From a virus, in the IMG/VR virus record IMGVR_UViG_3300024264_002017, positions 1 to 50,801 of that record: 50,801 nt of DNA, one strand, 5' to 3'. The position numbers and the translations under genes are program-made. Below, one piece after another: positions 28,588 through 50,532 of this stretch (positions are counted from its first letter, which is position 1; each line of letters opens with the position of its first letter). The notes below the pieces were generated by a model that saw only the letters and a program-made list of their open reading frames with translations, was not told the origin of the DNA and did no database searches.

Positions 28588-28594
28588 ATAAATA
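28587..28594 (+). promoter_or_regulatory. Late promoter box TATAAATA for the main radical SAM operon
   Basis: An exact box on the + strand that overlaps the start codon of the - strand PP-loop gene. The predicted start near 28600 leaves a 26-base leader to the ATG at 28626, with no ribosome site. Confidence 0.6.
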
Positions 28595-28618
28595 ATAATA
28601 AATTGATTAACATAAGTT

Positions 28619-28626
28619 TATTTATA
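28619..28626 (-). promoter_or_regulatory. Late promoter box TATAAATA facing the PP-loop gene
   Basis: The + strand reads TATTTATA, an exact box on the - strand that touches the start codon of the radical SAM gene at 28626. The predicted start near 28613 gives a 26-base leader to the PP-loop start at 28587, the mirror image of the + strand arrangement. Confidence 0.6.
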
Positions 28627-29963: not shown

Positions 29964-31065
29964 ACCATATTGTAACGCACCCTGGATAGGATTATCCTAT
30001 GAAAGTTCGGTAGGATGTAAACCGTGTTGTGAATATATTCGCGGTGAATCTGGATCAGCATTCAGAGGTAGATACACAGACTATATTAAATCTGATTACT
30101 TAAAAGATTTTAAAAAGATGATGTACGAAGATGATATGAGTGAAGGATGTAAAATATGTATTGATAATGAAAGAAACAACGACGACTCAACAAGATTACA
30201 AATGCTAAGGCATAAGGTTAATTATAAATCAAATGATAACAAATTAGTCAAATTTGATTTCAGACCAGGAAATAAGTGCAACCTAATGTGTAGAATGTGT
30301 CATTCTGAGGCTTCATCTATGCGTGAAGAAGAAGAAATTAAATTTAACAATGCAAAACCAGTATTCAGAGTAGAAGATATGAGTGATGCATACGACATTG
30401 ATTTGTCTAAATGTGAAGAACTTATGATATTAGGTGGTGAACCATCTATCGATTTAGAAGTGAGAAAGTGGATTGACCATATTAAAGACTTTAATACACA
30501 CGTAATTATAACAACCAACGGAACAAATGCTTCTGATAAATGGTTTGAGTCATTAAAAAAGTTAAAGAGTAGACTGAGCATTTGGTTATCAATTGATGCT
30601 ACTGGAGATATTAATGACTTTCAACGAAAAGGAAGTGATTGGAAACAGTTAAAATCAAATATAATAAAATATAAAAAAGAGTTCGGAAATAAAATATCAA
30701 TCCAACTCACAGCATCAGCAATTAATTTTACTACGTTAGATGTGTGGTGGAATGAATTTATGAAGTTAGATATACCTACATATTACCATGCTGTTATATA
30801 TCCAAAGGAATATAGTCTCAAAGCAATTCCAGATAAATATAAAGATGCCCAAATACAATGGCTAGAGGATTGGATATCAAAAGAATCTAAAAACGACAGA
30901 CAAAAGACTGAGGCAAAAGGAGCAATTGAATTGCTTAAAACAAATAGATATGACAAGAAGTATAATGAAAGTTTTAAAAGAGAAGTTAAGAAAATGGACG
31001 GCTGGAGAAATGAAAATATAAATGACTTAGATTACAGATTTGAAGAGATACTAAATGCGAACTAA
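29953..31065 (+). CDS. Radical SAM protein (tandem copy 1)
   Basis: This 370-residue radical SAM protein starts at ATG 29953, 11 bases inside the previous gene. A TTG further upstream is unlikely, because the paralogue that follows also starts with MRTKPYC. The N-terminal Cys set is C7, C22-x2-CC (25, 26) and CKIC (66, 69). The cluster motif is NKCNLMCRMCH (Cys109, 113, 116), with ILGGEPS as the SAM strand. It and the next gene are clear tandem duplicates: the start region, the PGNKCNLMCRMC core and ILGGEPSIDLE are shared. The end (YRFEEILNAN) is short and has no C-terminal SPASM. Substrate unknown. Confidence 0.85.
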   Translation: MRTKPYCNAPWIGLSYESSVGCKPCCEYIRGESGSAFRGRYTDYIKSDYLKDFKKMMYEDDMSEGCKICIDNERNNDDSTRLQMLRHKVNYKSNDNKLVKFDFRPGNKCNLMCRMCHSEASSMREEEEIKFNNAKPVFRVEDMSDAYDIDLSKCEELMILGGEPSIDLEVRKWIDHIKDFNTHVIITTNGTNASDKWFESLKKLKSRLSIWLSIDATGDINDFQRKGSDWKQLKSNIIKYKKEFGNKISIQLTASAINFTTLDVWWNEFMKLDIPTYYHAVIYPKEYSLKAIPDKYKDAQIQWLEDWISKESKNDRQKTEAKGAIELLKTNRYDKKYNESFKREVKKMDGWRNENINDLDYRFEEILNAN

Positions 31066-32161
31066 ACCATATTGTAAAGCACCCTGGCTAGGCTTAGCTT
31101 ATGAAGGTACAGTAGGATGTAAACCGTGCTGTGAATGGAAAGGTGATGTTTTTGAAGGTACATATACAGACTATAAGGATTCAAAATACTTAAAAGACTT
31201 TAAACAGTTAATGTATGAAGATGAAATTCATCCGGCATGTATTGAGTGTACTAATACCGAAGAGAGAAATATTCCTAATGTTTTATCAAGAAGGCAGAAA
31301 TACGAAGGTTATCCTGCAGACTTCCATAGTGAAAACAAAGTAGTAAGATTCGATTATAGACCAGGTAATAAATGTAATTTAATGTGTCGCATGTGTTGGG
31401 AAGGTGCATCTAGTTTGATTGAAGAAGAAAAGGGAGTTGAAGTAATGCACTTAGATACTTCAGATGCTTATGATATAGATTTGTCTAATTGTAAAAAACT
31501 TATGATATTAGGTGGTGAACCTTCTATTGATTTAGAAATAAGAAAGTGGATTGACCATATTAAAGATCTTGATATGTATGTTGGTATAACTACTAATGCA
31601 ACTAACGCATCTGATAAATGGTTTAATAAGCTTCACTCTATTAGTGGCAAACTTGAAATAACTTTATCTGTTGATGCCGCAGGCCCTGTACAAGAATACC
31701 AAAGACATAAAAGTAATTGGAATGAAATTAAACAAAATATATGGAAATATAAAGAGAATTTTAAAAACTTACAAATTCAATTAACTGCTACTGCTATTAA
31801 TATGCCAGTGCTTGATACATGGTGGGATGAGCTGATGGAATTTAATATTCCATTATTCTTTGGTGTTGTATTTTGGCCAGAAGAATATAATCTTGATGCT
31901 ATACCAGATGAATATAAAGAATATCAAATAGCCTGGTTAAAAAGATGGATTGAAAATTATGATGATAGACATCAGCAAACAAATGAAGTATGGAGAAGAA
32001 AAACTCTAGAAGCTGAAGAAGCTATTAGTATTTTACAAGCCAGCAAATTTGACTATCATAAATATAAAAAATTTAAAAACAGCGTAGCTGCGATGGATAA
32101 ACTTAGAAATCAAAATATATTAGATTTAGATGACAGATTTGAGGATATAATAAATGAGTAG
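31055..32161 (+). CDS. Radical SAM protein (tandem copy 2)
   Basis: This 368-residue protein is the partner of the gene at 29953. It has MRTKPYCKAPWLGLAYEGTV, then C22KPCC, CIEC (62, 65), NKCNLMCRMCW (Cys107, 111, 114) and ILGGEPSIDLEIRKWIDHIK. It overlaps the previous stop by 11 bases, exactly as copy 1 overlaps its own predecessor, and the junction DNA ACTAAACCATATTGTAA is the same in both. The duplication therefore included the overlap. The two copies have diverged in the middle (residues 120-140), so they may act on different substrates or form a heterodimer. No C-terminal cluster is seen. Confidence 0.85.
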   Translation: MRTKPYCKAPWLGLAYEGTVGCKPCCEWKGDVFEGTYTDYKDSKYLKDFKQLMYEDEIHPACIECTNTEERNIPNVLSRRQKYEGYPADFHSENKVVRFDYRPGNKCNLMCRMCWEGASSLIEEEKGVEVMHLDTSDAYDIDLSNCKKLMILGGEPSIDLEIRKWIDHIKDLDMYVGITTNATNASDKWFNKLHSISGKLEITLSVDAAGPVQEYQRHKSNWNEIKQNIWKYKENFKNLQIQLTATAINMPVLDTWWDELMEFNIPLFFGVVFWPEEYNLDAIPDEYKEYQIAWLKRWIENYDDRHQQTNEVWRRKTLEAEEAISILQASKFDYHKYKKFKNSVAAMDKLRNQNILDLDDRFEDIINE

Positions 32162-33521
32162 ATATGATTATGAGGGTAAAGATAATGGTGTAGTATGCAT
32201 GTATCCTTGGGTTCATACTACTGTAACAATGGAAAATTCTTTAAGACCATGCTGTGGTATTAGTCTGCGTGGTAGAGGCACTGTAAAACTCGGTGAGAAT
32301 ACTAATGATACCTTAGAAGATGCATTTAAATGGATGAGAGTAAAGATGCTTGCCGGTGAAAAGATAGAAGAATGTAATGAATGTTATTTAAATGAAGCAG
32401 CTTACCCAGATAAAATGCAACCTATGTCTATGCGAGGACAAGCTAATACTGACTATAGATTAGACTTACAAAACTTAGATGAAAATTTTATTGGTTTAAA
32501 AGGCATGGAAATTAGCCTTGATAATATATGTAATCTTCAATGTAAGATGTGTGACTCAATGTTTTCAAGTAATTTATATAGAAGAGATGAACATCTATTA
32601 AACGTAGAATTTGTATATGATGATAGATATGATATTGAAAGCGCTGGGAATCCCACCTTTCCTAAAATAACTAATCTTGGAAGTAGAAAACCTACAAAGA
32701 TTCCTAAACAAAGAATTGAATTTATTAAATCTCTTGGTGTAGATTGGTCCGAGTTACAGCATCTTAAAATCCTTGGTGGTGAACCATTCTATTCGCCTAA
32801 TTTTGAAAAACTATTAGATCATTTAATAAAAGAAGCTAAACCAAAAAAATTAAGACTTGAGATTGTAAGTAATTGTACAAATAAAGTCGATGAACGAATA
32901 ATAGATAAGTTAAATTTATTTAAAGAAATTATTCTTACTTGCTCATTAGATGGATGCAATGATTATAATTCATATCAGCGTTGGGGTTCTCCTGGTTGGA
33001 AAGAGACATTAGAAATTTATAAATGGTATCATTCTAAAATTCATAACATGGTTAAACATCATGTGCATTCAACATATTCATTATTAAATTTAAATGGATT
33101 AGCCGGTGATGTAGCGTGGTTTGCTGAGAATTATCCAGAGTGTAGTGTGTCAAGATTAATAGTAAAGGATGGTGACTATTGTCCTAATCATGCACCACCT
33201 GAATATTTAAAGTGGTTAGAAGAACAGTGGGATAAAGACACTTATAAGTTCCAAATGAGAAATAGTAATCCATCTGAGTATGTTAGTATGGTCGATGGAT
33301 TTCCAACTCAAGCATATGAGGAAGAAGCTATAACTTTGAAAACCGGTATTGCTAAAATTGATGCCGAAAAAATGAAATTAAAGAAAAAACAACAATTTAA
33401 TTATAGACGATGGAAAAGATTCAGAGAAAAGATTATTGCTTTAGATAAATATTATGATTCAAAATTAGAAGATTATAATCCTGAGCTTGCTAAATTTATT
33501 GAAGAAGGATTTGGATGCTAA
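32154..33521 (+). CDS. Radical SAM protein with N-terminal twitch/SPASM-like Cys region
   Basis: This 455-residue protein starts 8 bases inside the previous gene. It has VCMYPW (Cys15), RPCCG (33, 34) and CNEC (74, 77), then DNICNLQCKMCD (Cys126, 130, 133) and ILGGEPFYS. The motif order marks it as another N-terminal twitch radical SAM enzyme, but the spacing from N-terminal Cys to core is its own. A Lys-rich stretch (residues 410-430, KMKLKKKQQFNYRRWKRF) lies near the C-terminus and might bind nucleic acid or an acidic partner. Substrate unknown. Packing supports translational coupling. Confidence 0.84.
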   Translation: MSRYDYEGKDNGVVCMYPWVHTTVTMENSLRPCCGISLRGRGTVKLGENTNDTLEDAFKWMRVKMLAGEKIEECNECYLNEAAYPDKMQPMSMRGQANTDYRLDLQNLDENFIGLKGMEISLDNICNLQCKMCDSMFSSNLYRRDEHLLNVEFVYDDRYDIESAGNPTFPKITNLGSRKPTKIPKQRIEFIKSLGVDWSELQHLKILGGEPFYSPNFEKLLDHLIKEAKPKKLRLEIVSNCTNKVDERIIDKLNLFKEIILTCSLDGCNDYNSYQRWGSPGWKETLEIYKWYHSKIHNMVKHHVHSTYSLLNLNGLAGDVAWFAENYPECSVSRLIVKDGDYCPNHAPPEYLKWLEEQWDKDTYKFQMRNSNPSEYVSMVDGFPTQAYEEEAITLKTGIAKIDAEKMKLKKKQQFNYRRWKRFREKIIALDKYYDSKLEDYNPELAKFIEEGFGC

Positions 33522-34684
33522 AATGTAAATACGCTTGGGGTCATTTAGACTTCAAGAAAGGTGGATATGCTCCATGCTTTCGTTTTAAAAGACATGACTT
33601 TGTAGAATCAGGTAGTGATAAACTTCCTTCTGAAGTAATTAATAATAGTGACTTTGTAAAGGTTCGTCAGCAACTTCGTAATGGTGTATTTCCAAATGGT
33701 TGTATAGATTGTAAATTACAGGAAGAGGCTGGAGTATCTTCGTACAGAACACGATCACTAGATATTGAGCATATATCTGAGCCTGATTATGATAGTGATA
33801 ACATCTATATAAAAGATTTACAGATCAAAGCAACCCGAGCCTGTAACTATCAATGTAGACATTGTGATACATCATCTAATTCAAGATTTGAATTAACTGG
33901 TAGACAATTCCCTGAGATAGAAACAACATTAAGAAATGATTTTCGATTTCCGCATATATCTACACCTGAAGTAAAGATTCCTGTTCCAACTACTGAAGTT
34001 ATTGATGATTTATTTAAAAATGTTATACCGCGAGTAGAAGCAATAGAATTTTCTGGTGGTGAACCATTCTATACACGAGATATGTATAAACACTTACATA
34101 GAATGATAGATGATCCAAACATCGATACAAAGAAGATTCAGCTTATATACAATACAAATATGAGTATCTTAGAATATAAAGGATATAGCGTTAAAGATCT
34201 TTGGCCGCATTTTAAAAGCATAAATGTAACAGTGTCTATGGATGGTACAGGTGATCTATTTAATTACTTTAGAACCGGTGGAGATTATCAGACAGTTATA
34301 AATAATATAAAAGAGATTGCACCATATGTAACTAAGTTTTTATTTGTGTGTACTACATCATCATATCAGGCTTTTTATATGAATGAAATATATAAAGACT
34401 TGTGTGATATAAGAGACTCAATTGATACACCTGCAAATATAAGAGCTACATTTGTTCATTGGCCTCAGGTTATGGATATTGTAAATCTTGAAGAAGATGT
34501 CAAGCTTCATTTGTTAGCAAACACAGATGAAAATGATTTTACAAAAGAATTCTTAAAGAGATTGACAGGTAGAAGAACAATAGATACATATAAGTTTAAG
34601 GAACTAGTAAAACTACAAGATGAATTATATGATGTATCTGCAAAAGAGATGGCTCCTAAAATATGGGATTATGTAAATGCTTGA
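33515..34684 (+). CDS. Radical SAM protein with reduced N-terminal Cys set
   Basis: This 389-residue protein has an N-terminal set CKYAWG (Cys4), APCF (only one Cys, 21) and CIDC (63, 66), one Cys fewer than its neighbours because the CC pair is single. The core is RACNYQCRHCD (Cys110, 114, 117) with SGGEPFYT. The missing Cys may change the auxiliary cluster or its coordination. It starts 7 bases inside the previous gene, with an AAGGA-type ribosome site nearby (33506-33510). The C-terminus is helical without further Cys pairs. Substrate unknown. Confidence 0.83.
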   Translation: MLKCKYAWGHLDFKKGGYAPCFRFKRHDFVESGSDKLPSEVINNSDFVKVRQQLRNGVFPNGCIDCKLQEEAGVSSYRTRSLDIEHISEPDYDSDNIYIKDLQIKATRACNYQCRHCDTSSNSRFELTGRQFPEIETTLRNDFRFPHISTPEVKIPVPTTEVIDDLFKNVIPRVEAIEFSGGEPFYTRDMYKHLHRMIDDPNIDTKKIQLIYNTNMSILEYKGYSVKDLWPHFKSINVTVSMDGTGDLFNYFRTGGDYQTVINNIKEIAPYVTKFLFVCTTSSYQAFYMNEIYKDLCDIRDSIDTPANIRATFVHWPQVMDIVNLEEDVKLHLLANTDENDFTKEFLKRLTGRRTIDTYKFKELVKLQDELYDVSAKEMAPKIWDYVNA

Positions 34685-35834
34685 TAATAGATTAGATCAA
34701 TTAACCATAGAGGTTACATCAAATTGCCAGGCAAAATGCCCCGGGTGTATACGTCATAAAGTAATTAATTCTGTTACAGATGAAATTGGCGGACCGCCAA
34801 AAAATATTAATATGACATTAGAAGCTCATAACAAATTACTTGATGAGGCTTCTCCATTAAAGTATGTATCATACGATGGTGGATTCGGTGATTCACCTCT
34901 TCATCCAAACTTTCTAGAGATGATAGAATACGCAGCAAAGAAAGATATAGAGATGCTTACTATATCTACTAATGCATCTATGCGTAATCCAAAATGGTGG
35001 GCACAACTTGGTGCTATATTAAGTGAGCATTTACCTACTGTTGATGGCATAGATAGACATAAAATCTTTTTTGATTTAGATGGTATTGATAATGAAACAC
35101 AAGAAATGTATAGAATCAATACTAGCTTCGATAAGATTATTGCAAATGCAAAAGCATTTATAGGTGCGGGTGGTATTGCATGTTGGAAAATGATTCCATT
35201 TGAATTTAATGAACCACTAGAAGAAAGAGCAAAAGAGTTAGCAACAGAATATGGATTTGCAGAATTTCATAGAGATAGAGTACAGCGAATAGAACAAGTA
35301 GCAAGTAAGTTAGCTATCTTTAAAGCTATGAAAGGTGAAGATGCAGATTATAAAGATATGCGTGATGCAGAAATTGATTTATCACCTAAGAGTAATTTAG
35401 ATGAGGTGGCAGAAAAAGCGAAGACACTCATACAAGATGTCGAGATTAACCCTGCTTTAAGTGTAGAACAGAATCTAGATAATGCAAAAGAAAAATCTGG
35501 TATAGTATGTGAATGGTCTGAAAATGGTATGTGGCAAATATCACATGATGGTGGAGTATATAGATGTTGTTGGCATCAGTCTAATTATAACTATTGGACA
35601 AGATTAAACTCAGGTGATAAACATGCTTGGGAAAGATTTATGGATAACTATGATGAGAATTGGAATAATATAAACTATCACACATGGGATGAGATAGTAA
35701 ATCATCCATTCTTTACAGAAGACTTAGAGAAATCTTGGTCTAATTCGTATGACGATGAGGTCATGCCTAAATTAAAAGTTTGCACAAAGAGGTGCTCAAA
35801 ACTAAATGTTGAATTAAGCGAGAGGCTAAGTTAA
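34677..35834 (+). CDS. Radical SAM protein with C-terminal SPASM-like domain
   Basis: This 385-residue protein has the radical SAM motif at the very start, SNCQAKCPGC (Cys17, 21, 24), and no N-terminal twitch. The SAM strand is YDGGFGDSPLHPN, a GGxGD form in place of GGEP. At the C-terminus there is a SPASM-like set: VCEW, GGVYRCCWHQ and VCTKRC (near 270-295 and 365-370), which would bind one or two auxiliary clusters. It is organised as in peptide- or sugar-modifying SPASM enzymes. The closest relative in the window is the gene at 36697. It overlaps a QueC-like gene by one base (TAATG). Confidence 0.83.
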   Translation: MLDNRLDQLTIEVTSNCQAKCPGCIRHKVINSVTDEIGGPPKNINMTLEAHNKLLDEASPLKYVSYDGGFGDSPLHPNFLEMIEYAAKKDIEMLTISTNASMRNPKWWAQLGAILSEHLPTVDGIDRHKIFFDLDGIDNETQEMYRINTSFDKIIANAKAFIGAGGIACWKMIPFEFNEPLEERAKELATEYGFAEFHRDRVQRIEQVASKLAIFKAMKGEDADYKDMRDAEIDLSPKSNLDEVAEKAKTLIQDVEINPALSVEQNLDNAKEKSGIVCEWSENGMWQISHDGGVYRCCWHQSNYNYWTRLNSGDKHAWERFMDNYDENWNNINYHTWDEIVNHPFFTEDLEKSWSNSYDDEVMPKLKVCTKRCSKLNVELSERLS

Positions 35835-36697
35835 TGATTGAAGAAAATATAGTAATATACGGAAGAGGTAAAGCAAGAGAAATACCTCATGAAAAAACAT
35901 ATAATGTACAATTAAATTTTGATGAATCAGATAAACATATCGGAATAGGCATGTCAGGTGGAATGGATTCAGCCATGTTATTATGGTTACTTGCATATCA
36001 TATTGATAAAAATAATTGGGATACAACAATACACCAATGGTCAGTTTGCCTTGATGAGAGACCTTTTCAAGTTCATCACGCAAAGAAAGTTATTCAATTT
36101 GTAAAAGATTATTTTCCTAATGTTAAATTTGGAGAGCATAGAACTAGTGTAGCTAATTCAGTACAATATATAGATCATGGTACGGAAGTATCGTGGCAAT
36201 TGGCTACTGATAAAAAAATAACAAAATTATTTAACGGTGTAACACTAAATCCATCAGATATTGAATCACTATATTGGGGTGTAGCATGGGAAAAAAGAGC
36301 TATGAATCGTGATCATGATAGTACTGGTTGGGATGAAGAAAAGATTAAGCGGATACATCTTCCATTAATGGAAAATGGTTTAATAGATAAAATGAAAATA
36401 GGAACGGACTGGGACGATAGTAAAGTTGAAACACATGCGTTTCACGAGAATCTTCCGTTTATACATGATGATAAAAGAGTTGTATTAGCTTTATATAAAA
36501 AGTATGGGTTATTATTAGAGCTTGGTCCATTAACAAGAAGCTGCGAAGGACCATGGGAAAGAACAGATGGATTTAAAATAGAATGTAAACGCTGTTGGTG
36601 GTGTATAGAAAAACAATGGGCTACCGCTCATATTTGGAATAATGATCCTAGAGTAGCATTAAAATATTATCCAGGGGTTATTGAACCAGGTCAATAA
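35834..36697 (+). CDS. QueC-like PP-loop ATPase
   Basis: This 287-residue protein is a paralogue of the - strand PP-loop gene at 27910. It has the PP-loop GMSGGMDSAML (near residue 40), a second shared segment FQVHHAKKVIQFV, and the same C-terminal TRSCEG...CKRCWWCIEKQWA segment that resembles the QueC zinc site. It is likely to adenylate a carboxylate or amide. It is placed between two SPASM-type radical SAM genes, with TAATG overlaps on both sides, which strongly suggests joint action with them. A longer N-terminus and an insert (residues 110-210) set it apart from the first copy. Nothing here proves a deazaguanine substrate. Confidence 0.82.
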   Translation: MIEENIVIYGRGKAREIPHEKTYNVQLNFDESDKHIGIGMSGGMDSAMLLWLLAYHIDKNNWDTTIHQWSVCLDERPFQVHHAKKVIQFVKDYFPNVKFGEHRTSVANSVQYIDHGTEVSWQLATDKKITKLFNGVTLNPSDIESLYWGVAWEKRAMNRDHDSTGWDEEKIKRIHLPLMENGLIDKMKIGTDWDDSKVETHAFHENLPFIHDDKRVVLALYKKYGLLLELGPLTRSCEGPWERTDGFKIECKRCWWCIEKQWATAHIWNNDPRVALKYYPGVIEPGQ

Positions 36698-37746
36698 TGT
36701 ACGACTATAAAGATATAAAACAGGTTCATCTTGAGCCAACACAGAAGTGTCAAGCGAGATGTCCAATGTGTGATCGTAATGTAAATGGTGGTAAAGATAA
36801 TTATCATTTAACTAATGCTGATCTATCATTGATGGATGTCAAGACTATAATGCCTGAAGCTTTTGTGCGCCAGCTTGAGAACCTCTATATGTGTGGTAAT
36901 CATGGTGATCCGATGATGGCACCTGAAACATTAGAGATATGCCAATGGTTAAAGGAAGTTAATCCGAAGATACGTCTTGCAATGAATACAAACGGTGGTG
37001 CACGAACACCTGATTGGTGGAGAGGATTAGCAAAGGTTGTAGACCATGTAACATTCTCTGTTGACGGTTTAGATGACACTAATCACTTATATAGACAAGG
37101 TGTTAATTGGAATAAAGTAGAAGAAAATATGGCCGCCTTTTGTGAAGCAGGCGGTAACGCGAAGTGGGAATTCTTAGTATTTAAACATAACGAACATCAG
37201 CTGGAAGAGGCTGAGTTATGGTCAAAGACATTAGGTGTTAAAACATTTAGTGTAAAGAAATCAGGTAGATATATTTCTAGTGCAACGTTAAAGAAAAAAG
37301 ATTCACATCAATCACAGGACAGACATGAGCAATACACACAACTCTTGGAGCCGCCTACTATGGAACGCTTTAAGAACAAAGCAGGGACAACATTTGATGA
37401 GATTACTAGGAAGTTTGGCTCTATGGATAAGTATTTGGATGTGGCTGACATAGAGCCTAAATGCATAAAGAAAAAAGAGATTTATATTTCAGCTGAGGGA
37501 TTTGTATTCCCTTGTTGTTGGACAGCAGGGCAAATGTATAAATGGTGGCAAAAACCAGGTGAGGCACAGATATGGGAACACATAGATCAGTATAATATTA
37601 ATGCAATCACTACACCTATAGAAGAAATTATAAATACATTTTTTAATTCAATAGAGGAAGCATGGGAAGTTGGGCCTGACCGATTAAAGGTTTGTGCTCT
37701 TAAATGTAATAAAGCATTTGACCCATTTGCAGCACAATGGCAGTAA
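36697..37746 (+). CDS. Radical SAM protein with C-terminal SPASM-like domain
   Basis: This 349-residue protein has TQKCQARCPMCDRN (Cys18, 22, 25) and the SAM strand MCGNHGDPMMAP. Near residue 252 it has CIKKKEIYISAEG, followed by FPCCWTAG (near 271) and VCALKC (near 333), a SPASM-like set. The domain order matches the gene at 34677, with the PP-loop gene between them. It overlaps the stop of that gene by one base and is overlapped by the next by 10 bases. It is a likely two- or three-cluster radical enzyme. The substrate is unknown. Tyr/Trp/Lys content is normal for the family. Confidence 0.84.
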   Translation: MYDYKDIKQVHLEPTQKCQARCPMCDRNVNGGKDNYHLTNADLSLMDVKTIMPEAFVRQLENLYMCGNHGDPMMAPETLEICQWLKEVNPKIRLAMNTNGGARTPDWWRGLAKVVDHVTFSVDGLDDTNHLYRQGVNWNKVEENMAAFCEAGGNAKWEFLVFKHNEHQLEEAELWSKTLGVKTFSVKKSGRYISSATLKKKDSHQSQDRHEQYTQLLEPPTMERFKNKAGTTFDEITRKFGSMDKYLDVADIEPKCIKKKEIYISAEGFVFPCCWTAGQMYKWWQKPGEAQIWEHIDQYNINAITTPIEEIINTFFNSIEEAWEVGPDRLKVCALKCNKAFDPFAAQWQ

Positions 37747-38870
37747 AAGAATTAAAGTGGAGTGAGTATGATTTCGGTCAAATACCTTTTGACGATATAG
37801 AACATTTTGGTACACGTTCTATGTTGGATAGAGATACATTTACAGTATCTTGGTTACTAGGAAGATTCTGTAATTACCGCTGTTCTTACTGCTGGCCGTA
37901 TGCAAGATCAGATAAGAAAGACCATAGACCACTTAAAGCAACTATAGGAACAATAGATGAAATTAAAAGACAAGCAAGGGAAAGAGGGTTCAATTCGTTC
38001 CACTTTAGTCTCTCTGGTGGAGAGCCAACCTTTCATCCACAGTATTTGGATATTGTACGTCATCTCAATGATGATGTTAGCCAATGCAATTTTCACTCAC
38101 TTCACATGACCTCGAATGTTTCTCGGCCTATGAAATGGTTCGAGGAATATTATCAAGCATCAAAAGATATGCATCGTGTATCGATTACAGCTTCTTACCA
38201 TAGAGAACATGTAAATACACCACAGAAGGTAAAAGAATTTGCAGATAAATTAGAGTTCTGTCAAGAACATAATATACAGATTACTATCAATATGGTAATG
38301 GTACCCGAGTTCTTTGAAGAGTTTTATGAAGAGGCATTATACTTTCATGATCGTGATATTAATGTAACGCTTAAACCACAATCAGATCCTACCGCTTCTT
38401 TTGTTGTAGACGGATACACAGATGATCAGTTAAAACGTTTACACAACGGAATGCCACAAAGAGGATACACTGAGGATAAAAAGAAAGTAGAAAGACCACA
38501 TTATAAATGGCGGAACAAAGCAGTAGATAATAGATATGGTAAAGTACCTGCTCACTTTGAAATAGAATTCACAGATAAACATGGTAAGAAATGGTACATG
38601 GATCAAGCAGAAAGATTCAATGCATTTAACTTTAATAACTTTAATGGATGGGAATGTTCATCAGGTTATAGAAGCATTATTATTCGTGAACCAGATGGCA
38701 CAATCAAGAGAAGTTATTCTTGTCACGATGAGCCATTAGGTCAAATAGAAACCGGGTTCCAGCTATATGATGGGCCCAAGATATGTACAACAAGTGCTTG
38801 CGTATCTTCAGCTGATAGTAAGATACCTAAACGCAAGCCAGGAAATATGATCCCATTATGGACGCAATAG
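37737..38870 (+). CDS. Radical SAM protein with C-terminal Cys-rich end
   Basis: This 377-residue protein has GRFCNYRCSYCWPY (Cys45, 49, 52) and LSGGEPTFHP, a classical radical SAM core. A C-terminal set (WECSSG, YSCHDEP, ICTTSACVSS, from about residue 303) could bind an auxiliary cluster. The middle includes MTSNVSRP and ITINMVMVPEFFEEF, strand-like parts of the barrel. It is a different lineage from the twitch proteins at the operon start. It overlaps the previous gene by 10 bases and the next by 13. The internal TATAAATA at 38878 lies just beyond it, inside the next gene. Substrate unknown. Confidence 0.84.
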   Translation: MAVKELKWSEYDFGQIPFDDIEHFGTRSMLDRDTFTVSWLLGRFCNYRCSYCWPYARSDKKDHRPLKATIGTIDEIKRQARERGFNSFHFSLSGGEPTFHPQYLDIVRHLNDDVSQCNFHSLHMTSNVSRPMKWFEEYYQASKDMHRVSITASYHREHVNTPQKVKEFADKLEFCQEHNIQITINMVMVPEFFEEFYEEALYFHDRDINVTLKPQSDPTASFVVDGYTDDQLKRLHNGMPQRGYTEDKKKVERPHYKWRNKAVDNRYGKVPAHFEIEFTDKHGKKWYMDQAERFNAFNFNNFNGWECSSGYRSIIIREPDGTIKRSYSCHDEPLGQIETGFQLYDGPKICTTSACVSSADSKIPKRKPGNMIPLWTQ

Positions 38871-43354: not shown

Positions 43355-43987
43355 ATGGAAGCAAGAACAAAATACAAATTACCAACACATGGTGAATTAA
43401 AACATATCAATATAGATCTTGGCAAGCTTCAAGCAGCAACAGATGTTTTAGCTGCCGAATATGTTGATGTTAAAACTGCAAATAAAGCTCTATGTGATAA
43501 TCATATGGCGCTCAGTAAATCTGTATACGATAACTTTAAACAGATAAACTTAACAGAACTTAACGGTGAAGAGTTACCATATACTGATGATATAAAAGCA
43601 AGACTGAGAAGAAATGAAGAGAAATTATATAATAAGCCAAACGATTTATTAATTGGAAGTTACTTTGAAGAAATAACAAATCAGTTTAAATGTGATAAGA
43701 TGAGAATTCGTATTACTAAACTCGATGGTCATACCGATGTGCCTATGCATATTGATTATGATCCTACCTATGCAACAAGAGTTGTAATACCAGTTTATAC
43801 AAATGAGAAAGTAATAAATAGATTTAAAGTGAAAGGTAAAGAAATTGAAACACATTTAGAAGCAGGCAAAGCATATTTCTTTAATACTGGATTTGCACAC
43901 GGAGTATTTAATCAAAGTGAAGAACCACGTATAGCCTTTATGTTTAGTTTGGACGGGCAAGATGACATCACAGATATTAGATTATAG
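43355..43987 (+). CDS. 2OG oxygenase of Asp/Asn-hydroxylase type
   Basis: This 210-residue protein has VPMHIDYDPTYATRVVIPVY (His132, Asp134) and FFNTGFAHGVFNQSEEPRI (His182, Arg192), the usual H-x-D...H...R order of the aspartyl/asparaginyl hydroxylase type of cupin-fold oxygenases. The iron triad is complete, unlike in the TauD-like neighbours. Residues 1-110 form a helical lead. It starts a new transcription unit from its own late box without a leader, then overlaps the next gene by 26 bases. Target unknown: a peptide side chain or free amino acid is most usual for relatives. Confidence 0.75.
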   Translation: MEARTKYKLPTHGELKHINIDLGKLQAATDVLAAEYVDVKTANKALCDNHMALSKSVYDNFKQINLTELNGEELPYTDDIKARLRRNEEKLYNKPNDLLIGSYFEEITNQFKCDKMRIRITKLDGHTDVPMHIDYDPTYATRVVIPVYTNEKVINRFKVKGKEIETHLEAGKAYFFNTGFAHGVFNQSEEPRIAFMFSLDGQDDITDIRL

Positions 43988-44789
43988 CGACGAAGAGATT
44001 ACACAACTAGTAAAGAAAATCATTAAAGATGGTTCTGTAGTACTCCATGATCAAAATTTAACAAGAGCTCAACATGTTGAGGCATGTAACCGTATTGGTC
44101 GTTGCGAGAAACAAGGATACTTTATGAATCCTAAAGATACCCCAGAAATAAGTATCGTATCTGGCCAGGTAAATCCTGATGGCTCAGAGATTGGCATGTT
44201 TAAAGATCAAGAATTAGAATGGCATGTTAACGGTGCTGGAAGACATAAGTTAACAGAATATTGTGTATCATTATATTGTGTAGAAGAATGTGTTGATACT
44301 GTGCTTTCTATATGTAATTGGTGTGACATGTTTGCTGAACTAACACCAGAAGAACAAGATTATTATCGAAGCATTGATGTTCATCTCGATGGTAAGGATG
44401 TTATCTTATGGCCGAAGAGTGCTTATAGAAATCCAGCAACTGAAGGAACATTTAATGTTGATAATGATTATTATAAAAAAGCTATACAAGATGATGATAG
44501 AAGACCACTTGTAGGTAAGCATCCAGTAGATGGAAGAGAATATCTATATTTTCTAATTCAATATTTAAAAGAAGCATACATTGGTGATAAACAATTAGAC
44601 ATCGATGAATTCTATGCTGACTTATATTCAAAAGTATTTAGATCAAAATATATGAAACACCATGTATTTAGAAGAGGTGACTTACTCTTTATGGATCAAT
44701 TACACACAATCCATAGGAGATCGCCGATACACTATATGAACAGACAATTATGGAGGACAGCGTTTGACTACTCAAATACAAAATTCTAA
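43962..44789 (+). CDS. TauD-like 2OG oxygenase with H-x-N (tandem copy 1)
   Basis: This 275-residue protein starts at ATG, 26 bases inside the previous gene. Motifs are PEISIVSGQVNPDG, then LEWHVNGAGR (His88, Asn90) and RRGDLLFMDQLHTIHRRSPI (second His near 253), with RQLWRTAFDYS (Arg). The Asp of H-x-D is Asn. The core WHxNGxxR and the C-terminal SKYMxHHxF...GDLxxMDQ are shared with the next gene, so the two are tandem paralogues. Cys-rich parts around residues 100-120 (LYCVEECVDT and CNWC) are unusual. Function is likely redox modification of a small molecule. Confidence 0.75.
   Translation: MTSQILDYSDEEITQLVKKIIKDGSVVLHDQNLTRAQHVEACNRIGRCEKQGYFMNPKDTPEISIVSGQVNPDGSEIGMFKDQELEWHVNGAGRHKLTEYCVSLYCVEECVDTVLSICNWCDMFAELTPEEQDYYRSIDVHLDGKDVILWPKSAYRNPATEGTFNVDNDYYKKAIQDDDRRPLVGKHPVDGREYLYFLIQYLKEAYIGDKQLDIDEFYADLYSKVFRSKYMKHHVFRRGDLLFMDQLHTIHRRSPIHYMNRQLWRTAFDYSNTKF
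44752..44756 (+). promoter_or_regulatory. Shine-Dalgarno GGAGG that decides a TTG start
   Basis: GGAGG lies seven bases before TTG 44764, inside the end of the previous gene. It supports TTG as the start of the second tandem oxygenase, as does the alignment of its first residues with the ATG-started copy. Confidence 0.65.
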
Positions 44790-45681
44790 AAAGCTAGTAG
44801 ATTTTTCTGATGAAGAACTATTAGAAGTTGCAAAAGAAGTTCAAACCGGTAAACCAGTTTTCTTTTATGAGCAAGACTTTACTCAACCAGAGTATGTTAA
44901 AGTAATGAGAAGGTTTGGTGAACCTGAAACACCAAAGCTTTGGATGAATCCTAAAGAAAATCCAGAAATATTTATTGTCACTGGTAAAAAAATAGATGGA
45001 AAGAAAGTAGGTATGTTCGGTGAAAAAGAATTAGGTTGGCATTCAAACGGAAACTCAAGAAAAGATATTAAAAAAATACTAATAGGATTATATTGTCACA
45101 AGGAATGTGAAGATACTACTTTGTCGATAGTAAATACGAGAGATGTATTTAAAGATTTTTCACAAGAAGAGAAAGATTATTATAATAATATTGTTTGTTA
45201 TTTTAAATACAAAAATAATACTATGATGGAAATAGAAGATGATGACCCAGAGCTAGAAGTAATGGATAGTCATAGCGGTCAAATTAGACCATTGTGTGGT
45301 AAGCATCCGCATACTAATGAAGACTATATCTATTTCTCATACCATTTTATTAGGAAGGTATGGTATACACCACCAGGTGGAAAGAGAAAGCAAATTGACA
45401 GAGATGAATTCGTTGATACATTATATAAAAAAATAATGAGATCTAAATATATGGATCATCACATATTTAAAGTCGGTGATTTAATATTAATGGACCAATT
45501 TGCCTCACTACATAGACGAACAGCAATAAGTGATTTAGATCGTGAGCTATGGAGAATAGCAGCTGATTATAGTACTATTATGCCATTACCAGAATTCTAT
45601 ACTAATGTGTTAACCGATGAAGAATTAGAAAAAGGTCAAAATAGTTGGAAAAACAGATTTAAAAATGCCGGTGCATACTAA
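44764..45681 (+). CDS. TauD-like 2OG oxygenase with H-x-N (tandem copy 2)
   Basis: This 305-residue paralogue of the previous gene has LGWHSNGNSR (His93, Asn95), then GDLILMDQFASLHRRTAI with the second His near residue 257, and RELWRIAADYS. H-x-N again replaces H-x-D. The start is TTG with GGAGG at the right distance. An insert at residues 150-180 (FKYKNNTMMEIEDDDPELEV) and a C-terminal tail (residues 280-305) set it apart from copy 1. It overlaps the next gene by 17 bases. The role is probably paired with copy 1. Confidence 0.75.
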   Translation: MTTQIQNSKKLVDFSDEELLEVAKEVQTGKPVFFYEQDFTQPEYVKVMRRFGEPETPKLWMNPKENPEIFIVTGKKIDGKKVGMFGEKELGWHSNGNSRKDIKKILIGLYCHKECEDTTLSIVNTRDVFKDFSQEEKDYYNNIVCYFKYKNNTMMEIEDDDPELEVMDSHSGQIRPLCGKHPHTNEDYIYFSYHFIRKVWYTPPGGKRKQIDRDEFVDTLYKKIMRSKYMDHHIFKVGDLILMDQFASLHRRTAISDLDRELWRIAADYSTIMPLPEFYTNVLTDEELEKGQNSWKNRFKNAGAY

Positions 45682-46291
45682 AAATGTAATTACAGGAATA
45701 TCATTTAGTTACGCAGAAAATTCCATGAACACAAGAGGCCTAGGATTAATGGGTCTTGATTATGTGTATGACATGACAGATTTTAACATGCCTATATGTT
45801 ATAAGAATAATGCTGATGGTAAAGTGTTAGCTCGTGTACATGGTTTCTTAAAGGTAATTAAAGAGTCTGATATTTTGGTATTTGCTGTACCTGAAGCTAC
45901 TGCTCATTACTCTGCTGGATTTAAGAATGCAATGGATTGGATTATATGTGCAACTCATTTTAATTCTGATCTTGGACAAGATGGACCATTCTCAAATAAG
46001 CCTATCTATATAATGACATTTACACCGGTAACAAAGAATGCAGGTGATAGACATTTTGAAATGACTAAACACTTAGTAGAGAAAATGGGTGGTGTAGTTC
46101 ATAACATGTTTTTAAAGAATAACGGATGGAAAGAATGTGTGCCAGGAAACTATGAATGGGTCAAAGAAGAATGCATTGAAATATTTGACACTGAGTTATT
46201 TGATAAACCAGAAAGAAAACCTGACATGTCTGATAGACCAAGAAAATGGGTAGAACAATATAAGGAATGGGATGCTAAGTGGAATAGCTGA
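45665..46291 (+). CDS. NAD(P)H-dependent FMN reductase-like flavoprotein
   Basis: This 208-residue protein has a flavodoxin-like fold: ITGISFSYAENSMNTRGL (FMN phosphate loop), ILVFAVPEATAHYSAGFKNA followed by MDWI (residues 78-101, like the P-x-Y-x-x-x-x-x-x-KNAIDW of the family) and KPIYIMTFTPV. It is likely to use NAD(P)H to reduce FMN. Such a protein could feed electrons to the radical SAM or oxygenase proteins of the cassette, though this is inference. It is co-directional, with 17- and 20-base overlaps. No Cys cluster is seen. Confidence 0.72.
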   Translation: MPVHTKNVITGISFSYAENSMNTRGLGLMGLDYVYDMTDFNMPICYKNNADGKVLARVHGFLKVIKESDILVFAVPEATAHYSAGFKNAMDWIICATHFNSDLGQDGPFSNKPIYIMTFTPVTKNAGDRHFEMTKHLVEKMGGVVHNMFLKNNGWKECVPGNYEWVKEECIEIFDTELFDKPERKPDMSDRPRKWVEQYKEWDAKWNS

Positions 46292-46853
46292 ATATATTAA
46301 TGTCGACTATGACAAAGATTGGCTTATACGAATGCATAACGAAGTTCGCGGTGAGACAGCCTTAGAGTATATTGAATGTGGTACTGAGTCACATGTTCTT
46401 ATATCTAACCCAGATTATTATAGACAATGGGATAGATTACTAACATGGGGGTCAGAAGCTCATATAGGTATGTGCGAACATGGTACTGGCTTTAACTTAA
46501 ATGGTACTTTAAAAGCGGGTGTTCCACCTCACATAGATTTTGACGAGCGCGCTGGTAACCAATTTAATTTATTACTACCTATGTTTGGTACAGCAATGAT
46601 TGGTATATATGAAACACATCCACGCCAATTAGAATATAGACATGGTAAGACTCACTGGAATATGCTGCAAGACAAGTATCCAGCAATACAGATAGGTGAA
46701 ATATTAGTAGATAAACCTGTATTATTAAATACTAAATACTTACATGATGTGAGAGTTGTTGTTGCACCTCGTGCAATATTTTGTTTTGCCTGGAGAGGTA
46801 TAAATAAAACATATAATGAATTTAAAGAACATGTGGAAAAAACATACTCCTGA
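46272..46853 (+). CDS. Cupin-type 2OG-Fe(II) oxygenase
   Basis: This 193-residue protein has GVPPHIDFDERAGNQFNLLL (His87, Asp89) and LLNTKYLHDVRVVVAPRAIF (His158, Arg167), the complete H-x-D...H...R set of 2OG oxygenases. It resembles the gene at 43355 and the C-terminal domain of the gene at 48269 in plan, but sequence similarity is low. It starts 20 bases inside the previous gene. Its 3' end holds a TATAAATA box and the start of the next gene. Target unknown. Confidence 0.7.
   Translation: MLSGIAEYINVDYDKDWLIRMHNEVRGETALEYIECGTESHVLISNPDYYRQWDRLLTWGSEAHIGMCEHGTGFNLNGTLKAGVPPHIDFDERAGNQFNLLLPMFGTAMIGIYETHPRQLEYRHGKTHWNMLQDKYPAIQIGEILVDKPVLLNTKYLHDVRVVVAPRAIFCFAWRGINKTYNEFKEHVEKTYS
46799..46806 (+). 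promoter_or_regulatory. Possible late promoter box TATAAATA inside a gene end
   Basis: An exact box inside the 3' end of the oxygenase gene, with nine bases to the ATG at 46816. The predicted leader would be only about four bases. It may be a real near-leaderless promoter, or chance in AT-rich coding DNA. Confidence 0.4.
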
Positions 46854-48294
46854 AATAGAAACTAAAGAACCACACTTTGTAAATGGAATGCCTTGGCCGA
46901 GGTTGCCAGAGGGTGAGTACGATAAGGTTCCTTTGCAAGAAGAATATAGGCATTATAGTATGGATTATTTAGATAGTGCTGAAGCTAAACCTATATTCGA
47001 AGCTCAAGCAGATTATATAATGAAGTTTGGTCATAAGACCATAGTCGATATTGGTTGTAGACACGGCCCAGTAAATGATATATTATATGAGAGAGGTTAT
47101 ATCGATGAGGATTATCGTTACTTTGGATTTGATACAAGTACAGAATCTATTGAATACGCACAAAAGGTGTGGGAAGAATTCCCAGGCATAGAATATAAAG
47201 TTGGTACATATAAATTTATAGATGATATACTTGCTAGTGACTATACACCTAATATAGAAGTTGCCTATCAAGTTGATTATAAAGTTGATTGTTTAATATG
47301 GTCAGGTGTTTTATTATATGAACCGCAACAACATCAGAGATATTTTCAAGATATACAACAAGCATATGGGGCTCGTCATGCTATCATACAAGAGCCTATG
47401 AAAGATCAAAGGGTTTGGAGAGATGGCTTAGAATTAAATACAATAGCAAATTCAGTACAGCTTCATTATAAAAATAAATATCATGCTTATGAAGATTTAG
47501 TAACTGATTGTGATATATTTAGTGGACGTAGATTAATTGCTCATATCACATGTTATAGATCTGAAGGTAGAAGATCACGAACATGGACTGAAAAAGATAT
47601 ACATGGAGTTTTATGTGGTCCACAATATAATAAAATATCTATAGAAGAATGGGATAGAATACCTCTAATTAGATATTTACCTAAGGGCGAAAAGGTAATA
47701 CCTTATATATGGAGAGGAAAAGTAAATCCTAAATTGACGTATAAAGAACTTGAGCTATGCGCAAGTGCATTTAAATTAATGGAAAAAGAAAGGCACAACC
47801 ATAGATTAGCAGATAACTATTCAGAAAAAGGATTGCACCTAGATAAGATGTGGGTATACAATATTGTATTTGGTCCATTACTAAAACATAAAAGATATAA
47901 GCATGATGTAAGAGGTAAAGAAATATATCATAGACAACTACCACCGATGTTTGCAAGTGGTGTACAAGAACATGGTAAAGCAGCAAGGATCTTTTCAAGG
48001 TATTTTGAATTTGACCTATATAAAACAGATGGATCAACACTATTAGATAAAGTAGATGATTGGGAAGAGCTTAAATATGTAATTGAATTATTACTATACG
48101 CTAAAGAACATACAGCAACTTACTGGTCACGTGATAGATCACCATTGTTTTTTCATAAATTATTAAAAGAACTTCCTGATTTGTTTGAAGGATGGCAGGT
48201 ACACTCAGAAAAATTAGAGATTATATATCCTAATAATAAACAATACATATTTTACAATGGGGATTTAAATGAAGTTTTATATAACAGGGACTAG
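46816..48294 (+). CDS. SAM-dependent methyltransferase with long C-terminal extension
   Basis: This 492-residue protein has a class I methyltransferase core in the N-terminal half: TIVDIGCRHGPVNDILYERG (residues 75-94, motif I), YFGFDTSTESIEYAQKVW (102-119, motif II with an acidic residue) and VDCLIWSGVLLYEPQQHQRY (motif IV region). Residues 260-492 form a second, unrecognised helical domain rich in Lys, His and Tyr. The whole resembles a fusion of a methyltransferase with a substrate-binding domain. It starts 38 bases inside the previous gene. It ends 26 bases inside the next gene. Substrate unknown. Confidence 0.75.
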   Translation: MNLKNMWKKHTPEIETKEPHFVNGMPWPRLPEGEYDKVPLQEEYRHYSMDYLDSAEAKPIFEAQADYIMKFGHKTIVDIGCRHGPVNDILYERGYIDEDYRYFGFDTSTESIEYAQKVWEEFPGIEYKVGTYKFIDDILASDYTPNIEVAYQVDYKVDCLIWSGVLLYEPQQHQRYFQDIQQAYGARHAIIQEPMKDQRVWRDGLELNTIANSVQLHYKNKYHAYEDLVTDCDIFSGRRLIAHITCYRSEGRRSRTWTEKDIHGVLCGPQYNKISIEEWDRIPLIRYLPKGEKVIPYIWRGKVNPKLTYKELELCASAFKLMEKERHNHRLADNYSEKGLHLDKMWVYNIVFGPLLKHKRYKHDVRGKEIYHRQLPPMFASGVQEHGKAARIFSRYFEFDLYKTDGSTLLDKVDDWEELKYVIELLLYAKEHTATYWSRDRSPLFFHKLLKELPDLFEGWQVHSEKLEIIYPNNKQYIFYNGDLNEVLYNRD

Positions 48295-49285
48295 ACGAGG
48301 GTTAGGTAAGTACCTTCTCGATAGATTGAATACAGTTGAGTCTCTCGAAGAATGTGACGTATTTATTAATTGCAAGCATGATGGATTCAGCCAAGTAGAA
48401 ATGTTATATAAAGCTTATGAATTAAAAAAGACTGCAATTAATATAAGCTCAAATAGCGGGGACCGCTTTAAAAAAAGGGGTATACTTCGAGAGAATATAT
48501 ACGGCATTGAGAAGATTGCATTAGATCATGCAAACGAACAACTATTTTATTTAGGTATGGATACCACAAGTCTACGTTTTGGTTGGTTAGATACTGAAAG
48601 AGTTGCTGAGGTAAAAGACAACAAAATGTCATTGCAATTTGTTCTTGATACTATTGAATGGGTATTGTTAAATCCACATCGTGTAAAGGAAATAACAATA
48701 ACACCTCAAGATTGGTACCGTATTGGTGAAGATACGGTAAGTGAACAAATGAAAAGATCAGATAAGCTATATAAGTATTCTGGCATGTATGCAGCGCAAC
48801 ATAAAAAGATTAACCGTAAATATAATCTTACAAGAATACGTGAGGAAATAAAAGACTTACCTGATTTACATGATAATCAAATTATGTTACAATCACGTGA
48901 TGGTAAAGACTTCTATACTGGTTTATTACAAATAGATAAGTTACCAGAAGGATCTTCTGAAGATGATTTTAATAAGCTCAACGTTCATGAGGATTCAGAG
49001 ATTGCAAGGTTTATACAAGCTGAGGGTTTAACAAGAACTAGATTAATGGTTCTACCACCTAAAGGTTGTTATACATTTCATTTTGATCCTACTCCACGTA
49101 TACATTTAGTAGTAGAAACAAATGAATGGGCTTTTATGACAGATGATAAGTGGAGATTATTCCATGTACCTGATAATGGTTATCCATATTACTTTGATAC
49201 TACTAAACCACACACGGCAATTAATTCATCACTTGAACCGCGAATACATATAGTTGGTATTGCACCGCTAAAACCATATAAATAA
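48269..49285 (+). CDS. Fusion of a short SDR domain and a 2OG oxygenase domain
   Basis: This 338-residue protein joins two enzyme folds. Residues 1-160 look like a shortened short-chain dehydrogenase: TGTRRGLGKYLLDRL (residues 6-20, NAD(P) loop), INISSNSGD (Ser near 60) and YGIEK (Tyr78, Lys82) as the YxxxK pair, then SLRFGWLDTE. Residues 200-338 look like an Asp/Asn-hydroxylase type oxygenase: FHFDPTPRIHLVVETNEWAF (His271, Asp273) and KPHTAINSSLEPRIHIVGIA (His315, Arg325). Both active sites seem complete. It is the last gene of the cassette and ends in a late promoter box. It could oxidise the same substrate twice; that is inference. Confidence 0.75.
   Translation: MKFYITGTRRGLGKYLLDRLNTVESLEECDVFINCKHDGFSQVEMLYKAYELKKTAINISSNSGDRFKKRGILRENIYGIEKIALDHANEQLFYLGMDTTSLRFGWLDTERVAEVKDNKMSLQFVLDTIEWVLLNPHRVKEITITPQDWYRIGEDTVSEQMKRSDKLYKYSGMYAAQHKKINRKYNLTRIREEIKDLPDLHDNQIMLQSRDGKDFYTGLLQIDKLPEGSSEDDFNKLNVHEDSEIARFIQAEGLTRTRLMVLPPKGCYTFHFDPTPRIHLVVETNEWAFMTDDKWRLFHVPDNGYPYYFDTTKPHTAINSSLEPRIHIVGIAPLKPYK
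49277..49284 (+). promoter_or_regulatory. Late promoter box TATAAATA five bases before ATG
   Basis: An exact box overlaps the stop of the fusion gene, with AGTGT before the ATG at 49290. Same spacing as three other starts in the window. No ribosome site is present. Confidence 0.65.
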
Positions 49286-49289
49286 GTGT

Positions 49290-49736
49290 ATGATTGAGAA
49301 GATATTAGCGGGCACATTAGCCCTTTCATTAGGTGGATGTAGTATGTTAGGCGGTTTCAACGCACTAGATCCCAAGAATTTAATTAAGACAGCAGCAACA
49401 ACTGGTGTCACATACGTCATAGCAGGCCCTTTACCGGCAGCGGCCAATGCAGCGACATCTATAGCAGTTGATTCAGTATTACCTGAAGATAAACCTGCAA
49501 TAAGCGATATTGAAGCCGGGAACGAAGAACAATTGAGGGCATTTATGTTTGCAAATGTAACAGAAACCATACTATATGGCGCAATCGGATTTTTAATATT
49601 TACTAATGTTGTCGGTCCATGGGCTGCACAACGAAGAGCAAGAAGAAAAGCAGAACAAGCAGCAGTAGATCAGCGTAGGAAAGATAAGTACGATGCTATG
49701 AAGGCTGAATTAGCTGCACGTAGAAGTAAAGATTAA
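49290..49736 (+). CDS. Putative phage lipoprotein with membrane segment
   Basis: This 148-residue protein begins with a lipoprotein-type signal (MIEKILAGTLALSLGGC, Cys17 after LGG). It has an Ala/Thr-rich middle and a membrane segment near residues 90-113 (ETILYGAIGFLIFTNVVGPW). The end is a highly charged helix (RRARRKAEQAAVDQRRKDKY). The build could suit an envelope protein with a part in lysis, superinfection exclusion or membrane anchoring; none can be chosen. It is not a classical Rz1, which is Pro-rich and shorter. It is transcribed from its own leaderless-type late box. Confidence 0.68.
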   Translation: MIEKILAGTLALSLGGCSMLGGFNALDPKNLIKTAATTGVTYVIAGPLPAAANAATSIAVDSVLPEDKPAISDIEAGNEEQLRAFMFANVTETILYGAIGFLIFTNVVGPWAAQRRARRKAEQAAVDQRRKDKYDAMKAELAARRSKD

Positions 49737-49851: not shown

Positions 49852-50532
49852 ATGTTTAGATCAATGATTAAAAAATCTATACATAAATCTCAGCATTGCA
49901 ATCGCAACTGGGATTTAAGCAAGGAAATGCCACAAGAAGATATCGACTTGATAACTGAAGCGGCTACTCAATGCCCTACTAAGCAAAACCTTAACCACTA
50001 TAAAACCCACGTGATAACAGATCGTGCTATGATTGAACAAATCGAAGCTGCTACTGCTATTCCTGAGTTTGGTAGTGAAGACAATTCATTCTTAGGATTT
50101 GATGGTCTACAAGGTTATGACGAAGGTCAAGGGCCAACTAACTCACAACTATCTGCTCATACAGTATATGCATTTGTTGAAGACGATGTAAAACAATATG
50201 GCGAAGAAGTTCGTAATATTAGTGAGTCTGAAAAGATGGGTGGTTCGAAAGAACATTTTTCATATAAGGAAGATCGTGACCAGGCAGTAGGTATTGCTGC
50301 AGGTTATGTAAACCTTGTATCAACAATGATGGGTTATTCAACTGGATGTTGCAAGTGTTTCCATGTAGAGAAAGTTAACGAAATACTAGGTGTTCCTGAA
50401 GGTAAGAAGACTGTATTGTTAATGGGTGTTGGTATCGCTGATACTTCTCGCTCAAGACAAGAGCATCATTCAGATGCATCTTTCAAATTCGGCTCTAAGC
50501 CAAATATGAGAAAGCATATCGTTCACGCGTAA
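49852..50532 (+). CDS. Nitroreductase-like flavoprotein
   Basis: This 226-residue protein has the order of motifs of FMN-dependent nitroreductases: an N-terminal CNRNWDLSKEMPQEDIDLI segment, AATQCPTKQNLNHYKTHVI (residues 42-60; FMN contact region), a central AVGIAAGYVNLVSTMMGYST helix and VPEGKKTVLLMGVGIAD. Similar genes are known as accessory genes of marine T4-like phages. The likely reaction is NAD(P)H-dependent reduction of a small substrate. CCKCFHV (three Cys near residue 170) is unusual. It has a long structured leader, a strong ATAAGGAGAAAAAA ribosome site and a terminator, so it is its own transcription unit. Confidence 0.78.
   Translation: MFRSMIKKSIHKSQHCNRNWDLSKEMPQEDIDLITEAATQCPTKQNLNHYKTHVITDRAMIEQIEAATAIPEFGSEDNSFLGFDGLQGYDEGQGPTNSQLSAHTVYAFVEDDVKQYGEEVRNISESEKMGGSKEHFSYKEDRDQAVGIAAGYVNLVSTMMGYSTGCCKCFHVEKVNEILGVPEGKKTVLLMGVGIADTSRSRQEHHSDASFKFGSKPNMRKHIVHA

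Follow-up and report, generated by a model that had tools for sequence, protein, structure and literature searches.

A compact SDR and an Asp/Arg-hydroxylase-type 2-oxoglutarate oxygenase in one phage protein: the joined form of a widespread gene pair

A virus record of 50,801 bases (GC 35.6%), analysed over its full length and called the window here, carries a gene whose single 338-residue product contains a compact short-chain dehydrogenase/reductase (SDR) and a 2-oxoglutarate (2OG) oxygenase of the Asp/Arg-hydroxylase type. The gene is the joined form of a phage gene pair that is widespread, and we give a probability of about one half to the reading that its product is a bifunctional oxidoreductase, derived by joining two overlapping genes, which carries out a hydroxylation and an SDR step on one substrate. 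The record is that of a marine T4-like myovirus, and its baseplate genes at 44-1804 and 3008-4516 (phrog_219 and phrog_438) are T4-like. The fusion frame is intact from the ATG at 48269 to the stop codon at 49283-49285; its first 26 nt overlap the methyltransferase gene before it, and the next ORF begins 4 nt after its end. A preliminary description had proposed one protein with both activities and had named its motifs, and in this it is borne out: there is one ORF, both folds are recovered, six further contigs share the arrangement, and T6-G-T-R-R-G-L-G13, Ser61, Y78-G-I-E-K82, H271-F-D273, H315, and R325 are all present. The features are as follows.

48269..49285, + strand: fusion gene, compact SDR plus Asp/Arg-hydroxylase-type 2OG oxygenase, 338 aa
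48269..48715, + strand: compact SDR domain, residues 1-149, from the AF2 model and SDR matches in the PDB
48284..48307, + strand: glycine motif T6-G-T-R-R-G-L-G13, from conservation over 86 SDR segments
48449..48514, + strand: SDR catalytic Ser61 to Y78-x3-K82, from conservation over 86 SDR segments
48716..48823, + strand: linker, residues 150-185, mostly of low model confidence
48824..49282, + strand: 2OG-Fe(II) hydroxylase domain (PF05118-like), residues 186-338
49079..49087, + strand: H271-x-D273 of the iron triad, in 74 of 74 hydroxylase rows
49211..49213, + strand: distal iron ligand H315, in 74 of 74 hydroxylase rows
49241..49243, + strand: R325, expected 2-oxoglutarate ligand, in 74 of 74 rows; role assigned by analogy to Cpz10

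Each of the two domains falls in a known superfamily. For the SDR, no Pfam SDR model matched the window domain alone; adh_short was matched by 10 of 30 SDR-domain relatives at E<=0.1 (best 4.7e-5), and a PDB search with a profile of the 30 relatives returned SDRs at modest E-values, the best being CylG (E 0.0012). The predicted structure is stronger evidence than these profiles. An AF2 model of the domain (30 rows; pLDDT 88.8, pTM 0.84) aligns with SDR structures at a VIA Z of up to 14.0 (137 aligned, 2.2 A); all 1000 Foldseek candidates were re-aligned, with Z at least 8, and the rows listed are mostly SDR enzymes. The TGxxxGxG motif, the Ser plus YxxxK, and the Rossmann-type core of the SDR superfamily are all found. 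A Pfam match to Tad3 at residues 120-178 (15.4 bits against a cut-off of 27) was taken as chance.

The preliminary description had also called this dehydrogenase short but complete. Its catalytic residues are indeed all present, but the modelled fold is not that of a classical SDR of about 250 aa, which has seven strands with beta2 and beta3 on the adenine side. The model has five strands in total, at residues 3-5, 31-34, 55-60, 99-104, and 141-144. With the glycine motif following beta1, 'CDVFIN' as beta4, Ser61 ending beta5, and the long helix that comes next carrying YxxxK, these are read as beta1, 4, 5, 6, and 7 only; on this reading, the beta2-alpha2-beta3-alpha3 segment is missing and the helix after beta4 is short. 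Between alpha1 and beta4, the domain is about 24 residues shorter even than the SDRs of loci L045 and L046 (about 180 aa), which retain a segment resembling beta2. In classical SDRs, the adenosine part of NAD(P) is held by the ends of beta2 and beta3. As modelled, the domain keeps its catalytic centre and its pyrophosphate motif but has no adenine side; consequently, NAD(P) binding is not assured and the earlier word "complete" does not hold. Structure prediction, proposed earlier as a check, gives an SDR core and a Cpz10-like hydroxylase fold, with the adenine side of the SDR missing.

Conservation was assessed over 86 SDR segments, one from the window and 85 from elsewhere, and over 74 hydroxylase rows (which count the window twice, as itself and as L048); both sets were picked by family similarity, so the figures describe retention within the family and not an unbiased rate. 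Among 37 SDR positions tested, G7, G11, G13, F32, N34, Q42, S61, Y78, and K82 are invariant, while R10 is kept in 83 of 86 and R9 in 78 of 86. The spacing from Ser to Tyr is 13 in 63 of the 86 and otherwise 11, 15, 16, or 17, the window having 17; thus, the active-site loop has been remodelled in some of these SDRs, the window's included. In the hydroxylase rows, the tested positions that never vary are H271, D273, R277, H279, H315, N319, R325, and H327.

For the hydroxylase half, searched as a fragment, PF05118 gave an E-value of 4e-4 at 20.5-20.7 bits, under the curated cut-off of 22.6, and all 13 of the hydroxylase family rows match the model at E<=0.01 (best 2.9e-12). Searched against the PDB, the profile of these 13 rows finds Cpz10 (E 2.3e-27) and L-proline cis-4-hydroxylase (4P7W; E 2.4e-7), and the structural model aligns with Cpz10 7v4m at Z 14.2 (140 aligned, 2.6 A). 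The domain thus has the jelly-roll core with HxD...H and the 2OG Arg of PF05118 and Cpz10-like enzymes. By comparison with Cpz10 (PMC9814697), in which the corresponding residue is Arg170, R325 is the expected 2OG ligand.

The fusion is explained by what surrounds the same domains elsewhere. A scan with the whole protein yielded 46 viral loci, mostly standalone SDRs, and a scan with the hydroxylase alone yielded 199 relatives; the tallies use 46 of 46 loci from the former, the best 80 of the 199, and the best 80 of 135 from another scan. Among the best 80 of 199 hydroxylase loci, the SDR lies immediately upstream on the same strand in 42, is fused in 6, is convergent in 2, and is near but not adjacent in 2; in the rest there is none (24) or the locus is cut off upstream (4), so that 28 have no strong SDR in the available DNA. 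Counted from the other side, the 86 distinct SDRs retained from the scans comprise 42 in tandem with a hydroxylase, 6 fused, and 1 convergent, together with 12 that precede a cytidylyltransferase gene and 25 with other neighbours (37 of 86 without an adjacent hydroxylase). Counts of overlaps and neighbours and the labels of the tree use 41 tandem pairs, leaving aside L188, in which an intact hydroxylase whose frame extends far upstream stands beside the SDR. The overlap, measured from the hydroxylase ATG to the last base of the SDR stop codon, is exactly 10 nt in 29 of the 41 pairs. The two frames differ in 40 of 41; consequently, the joining needed a change of frame as well as a linker.

In the tree, which is built on few columns and leaves many other forks unresolved, the fused forms make up a single clade (support 100/92), and every one of 200 bootstrap trees gives them a single origin. 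Since L002 nearly duplicates L003, and L003 and L004 encode an identical protein, the fused lineages number about five. The pairing itself reaches distant SDRs, including the divergent 180-aa SDRs of L045 and L046 and the convergent pair L036/L037. Each gene is also found without the other: 12 of 16 records with an SDR lacking an adjacent hydroxylase show no hydroxylase at all, and 10 of 13 hydroxylase records without an adjacent SDR show no SDR (most of these records being fragments). Therefore, neither enzyme strictly needs its partner.

Several other arrangements were seen among these loci. In L005, L008, L011, L014, and others, a mini-SDR lies between a DNA polymerase gene and a cytidylyltransferase gene, which it overlaps by 4 nt in the four named; the flanking genes read as a T4 gp43-like polymerase and a TagD/RfaE-like cytidylyltransferase. 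L173:3033-4481 has the order SDR-SDR-hydroxylase, and L182:2992-4363 has a mini-SDR, a longer SDR, and then a cytidylyltransferase; a heteromeric SDR is conceivable for these tandem SDRs. In L073:1009-3365, four PF05118-like hydroxylase frames stand in tandem. L188:2614-4305 has an SDR-hydroxylase pair flanked by two similar structural genes, at the site where L205:2283-3573 has a hydroxylase alone.

Outside these viral contigs, tblastn gave no SDR in cultured phages (the window domain at E<=10, the L008 and L045 SDRs at E<=1). In GTDB genome contigs, the SDR profile gave 116 pattern matches, none of them confirmed, in a scan that depends on short conserved stretches and so does not establish the absence of this SDR from bacteria. 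The hydroxylase profile gave 30 loci in the same contigs, none with a strong SDR match and only L211 and L212 with weak SDR-like ones; the best two, L205 and L206, look by their gene content like phage contigs binned in MAGs.

The fusion gene stands at the end of a conserved block of five genes and is followed by two more genes of interest.

43962..48294, + strand: conserved upstream block, five genes
43962-44789 and 44764-45681, + strand: TauD-type genes
45665-46291, + strand: FMN reductase gene
46272-46853, + strand: small gene, read as 2OG-like
46816-48294, + strand: methyltransferase gene with an added C-terminal domain, 26-nt overlap with the fusion gene
49290..49736, + strand: downstream gene, phrog_19883
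49852..50532, + strand: nitroreductase-family gene, recurrent in 8 of 41 tandem loci and 2 of 5 fused

Each of the five upstream genes has homologs near four of the other five fused loci (the exception, L001, spans just 1.4 kb), near 7 to 11 of the 41 tandem loci, and near 0 of the 12 cytidylyltransferase-type loci, with flanks of differing length. Homologs of the phrog_19883 gene, whose product is possibly a lipoprotein by its N-terminus, occur at all five other fused loci and at none of the 80 other SDR loci. A second Asp/Arg-hydroxylase-type gene, at 43355-43987 of the window, scores over the PF05118 cut-off (E 1.5e-7) and lies 4.3 kb upstream of the fusion.

Farther upstream, at 26487-38870, there are nine radical SAM genes (PF04055, each over the cut-off), in a run that a PP-loop gene and a frame on the minus strand interrupt. 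Of three that were tested, two exceed the cut-off of N_Twi_rSAM (NF033640). Genes of desaturase, aminotransferase-like, TauD, nitroreductase, and methyltransferase type are also found, and together they suggest an island for biosynthesis or surface modification. Several N_Twi_rSAM genes are present in the records of L002, L003, L004, L049, L050, L045, and L046, and two in that of L017. Radical SAM enzymes were considered as obligatory partners of the pair and rejected, with genes over the NF033640 cut-off in 8 of 10 records, one weak match in L035, and none in L016. For pelagimyophages, one study (PMC7029224) reports that the core genes include an Asp/Asn beta-hydroxylase and that a hypervariable region holds cassettes of radical SAM genes; thus, the general setting was already known.

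Given that the SDR and the hydroxylase are separate genes in most relatives, it might be supposed that an error of assembly or a frameshift joined them in this record. However, the in-frame fusion is found with identical architecture in six other viral contigs (L001, L002, L003, L004, L049, and L050), and it is consequently not an assembly artefact. Furthermore, in all 10 pairs drawn from five fused sequences, non-synonymous divergence is lower than synonymous in both domains (pN/pS 0.27-0.50 for the SDR, 0.16-0.44 for the hydroxylase), while the linker, which has a pLDDT below 50 at residues 148-173, has a pN/pS above that of either domain in 10 of 10. An artefact is thus extremely improbable. 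The full-length model (41 rows; pLDDT 76.5, pTM 0.49) permits use of the single domains, but the placement of one relative to the other is not predicted.

A more substantial alternative, which we nonetheless regard as doubtful, is that the SDR half is no longer a dinucleotide-dependent oxidoreductase and now has a role in substrate binding or assembly, or in acid-base catalysis free of NAD(P), beside an active hydroxylase. The five-stranded model without beta2 and beta3 agrees with this, as does the variable Ser-Tyr spacing with its remodelled loop. Yet the glycine motif, Asn34, Ser, Tyr, and Lys persist in 86 of 86 segments and would be unneeded by a pure scaffold, and R9 and R10 are largely retained, at a position that in many NADP(H) enzymes binds the 2'-phosphate. 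It is also conceivable, though unlikely, that the two halves tailor different molecules, as independent enzymes of one metabolic island, and are fused for equal expression only. That each gene occurs alone or with other partners, in an island rich in oxygenase and radical SAM genes, would fit such a view. It does not readily explain why direct pairing recurs across SDRs as distant as those of L045/L046 and the convergent L036/L037. The idea of action on one substrate, which the preliminary description had drawn from the fusion, is strengthened by the overlapping pair in many relatives, and is tempered by the occurrence of either gene without the other.

In the bifunctional reading that we prefer, the C-terminal jelly-roll domain would use H271, D273, and H315 to bind Fe(II) and R325 to bind 2-oxoglutarate, and would hydroxylate a C-H bond of a small or carrier-bound substrate, most likely an amino-acid-like or nucleoside-like group. 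The compact SDR, with Ser61, Tyr78, and Lys82, would then oxidise the new hydroxyl, or would reduce a ketone on that molecule, and the fusion would keep the two steps together. An Arg in the glycine motif often holds the 2'-phosphate in NADP(H) enzymes; because of the Arg9-Arg10 pair, NADP(H) would be the likelier cofactor. A broader proposal, that a new class of compact SDRs of about 142 aa works with NADP(H) despite the lost adenine half and was first coupled with, and later fused to, a Cpz10-like hydroxylase to "hydroxylate, then oxidise" in radical-SAM-rich islands of marine phages, is speculative and on balance improbable. If active, the compact SDR would indicate to what extent an enzyme can do without the Rossmann cofactor site. 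The fusion and the overlapping pair point to which two enzymes of the island work together, something that a gene list alone does not do, and they offer a testable way to learn what marine T4-like phages make or modify in the course of infection.

No description of the compact SDR, its operon with the hydroxylase, or the fusion was found in the open-licence PMC papers searched. The preliminary description knew of no common fusion of these folds, and among Pfam, PHROGs, and NCBIfam matches to the protein there is no model that spans both halves. However, the BFVD entry A0A1B1IWY5, a viral protein of 329 aa, matches the SDR model (TM 0.92, 58% identity to the SDR domain), has a length that fits the fusion, and may have the same architecture; with it, the sequence type is already in public databases. 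Classical SDRs (FabG type, 5U4S) share the Gly motif, Ser-Tyr-Lys, and Rossmann core with the compact SDR but have about 250 aa, against about 140, and beta2-beta3. The classical neighbours of the SDR model, which also include serine dehydrogenase 3ASV, clavulanic acid dehydrogenase 2JAH, and 4-hydroxyisoleucine dehydrogenase 5GWR, have Z of 13-14, tied within 1, so that none is favoured; the 4-hydroxyisoleucine and clavulanic acid enzymes were accordingly set aside as evidence for a substrate. On the hydroxylase side, the PF05118 (Asp_Arg_Hydrox) family, under whose cut-off the window domain falls, includes AspH and LpxO in addition to 4P7W.

Among phages, the nearest parallel is Pelagibacter phage Mosig, one of the marine T4-like phages, whose protein QOI69081.1 matches the hydroxylase type of the fusion; the SDR profile is unmatched across its 141 kb, and no SDR partner for the pelagimyophage hydroxylase is named in the available part of the study (PMC7029224). 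Two bacterial systems provide precedents, by analogy, for a two-step chemistry of the kind proposed. In the Hil operon of Pantoea ananatis and others, as reported (PMC3684760), an L-isoleucine-4-dioxygenase homolog (HilB, a 2OG dioxygenase) accompanies an SDR (HilC) close to AMKP reductase, which acts on the keto product, and the two encoded enzymes act on one amino acid. Unlike the fusion, this system is bacterial and unfused, with an oxygenase of PF10014 and an SDR of PF00106. Cpz10 (7V4F, 7V4M-7V4P), the Fe(II)/2OG beta-hydroxylase of caprazamycin biosynthesis, shares with the fusion protein its fold, HxD...H triad, and 2OG Arg, but is a standalone bacterial protein of about 30% identity, without a fused SDR, that acts on a nucleoside antibiotic; no such pathway is named in Pfam scans of the window genes. 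According to its description (PMC9814697), Cpz10 hydroxylates an amino-acid-substituted uridine, a glycyluridine derivative; therefore, this hydroxylase fold can act on the amino-acid part of a nucleoside.
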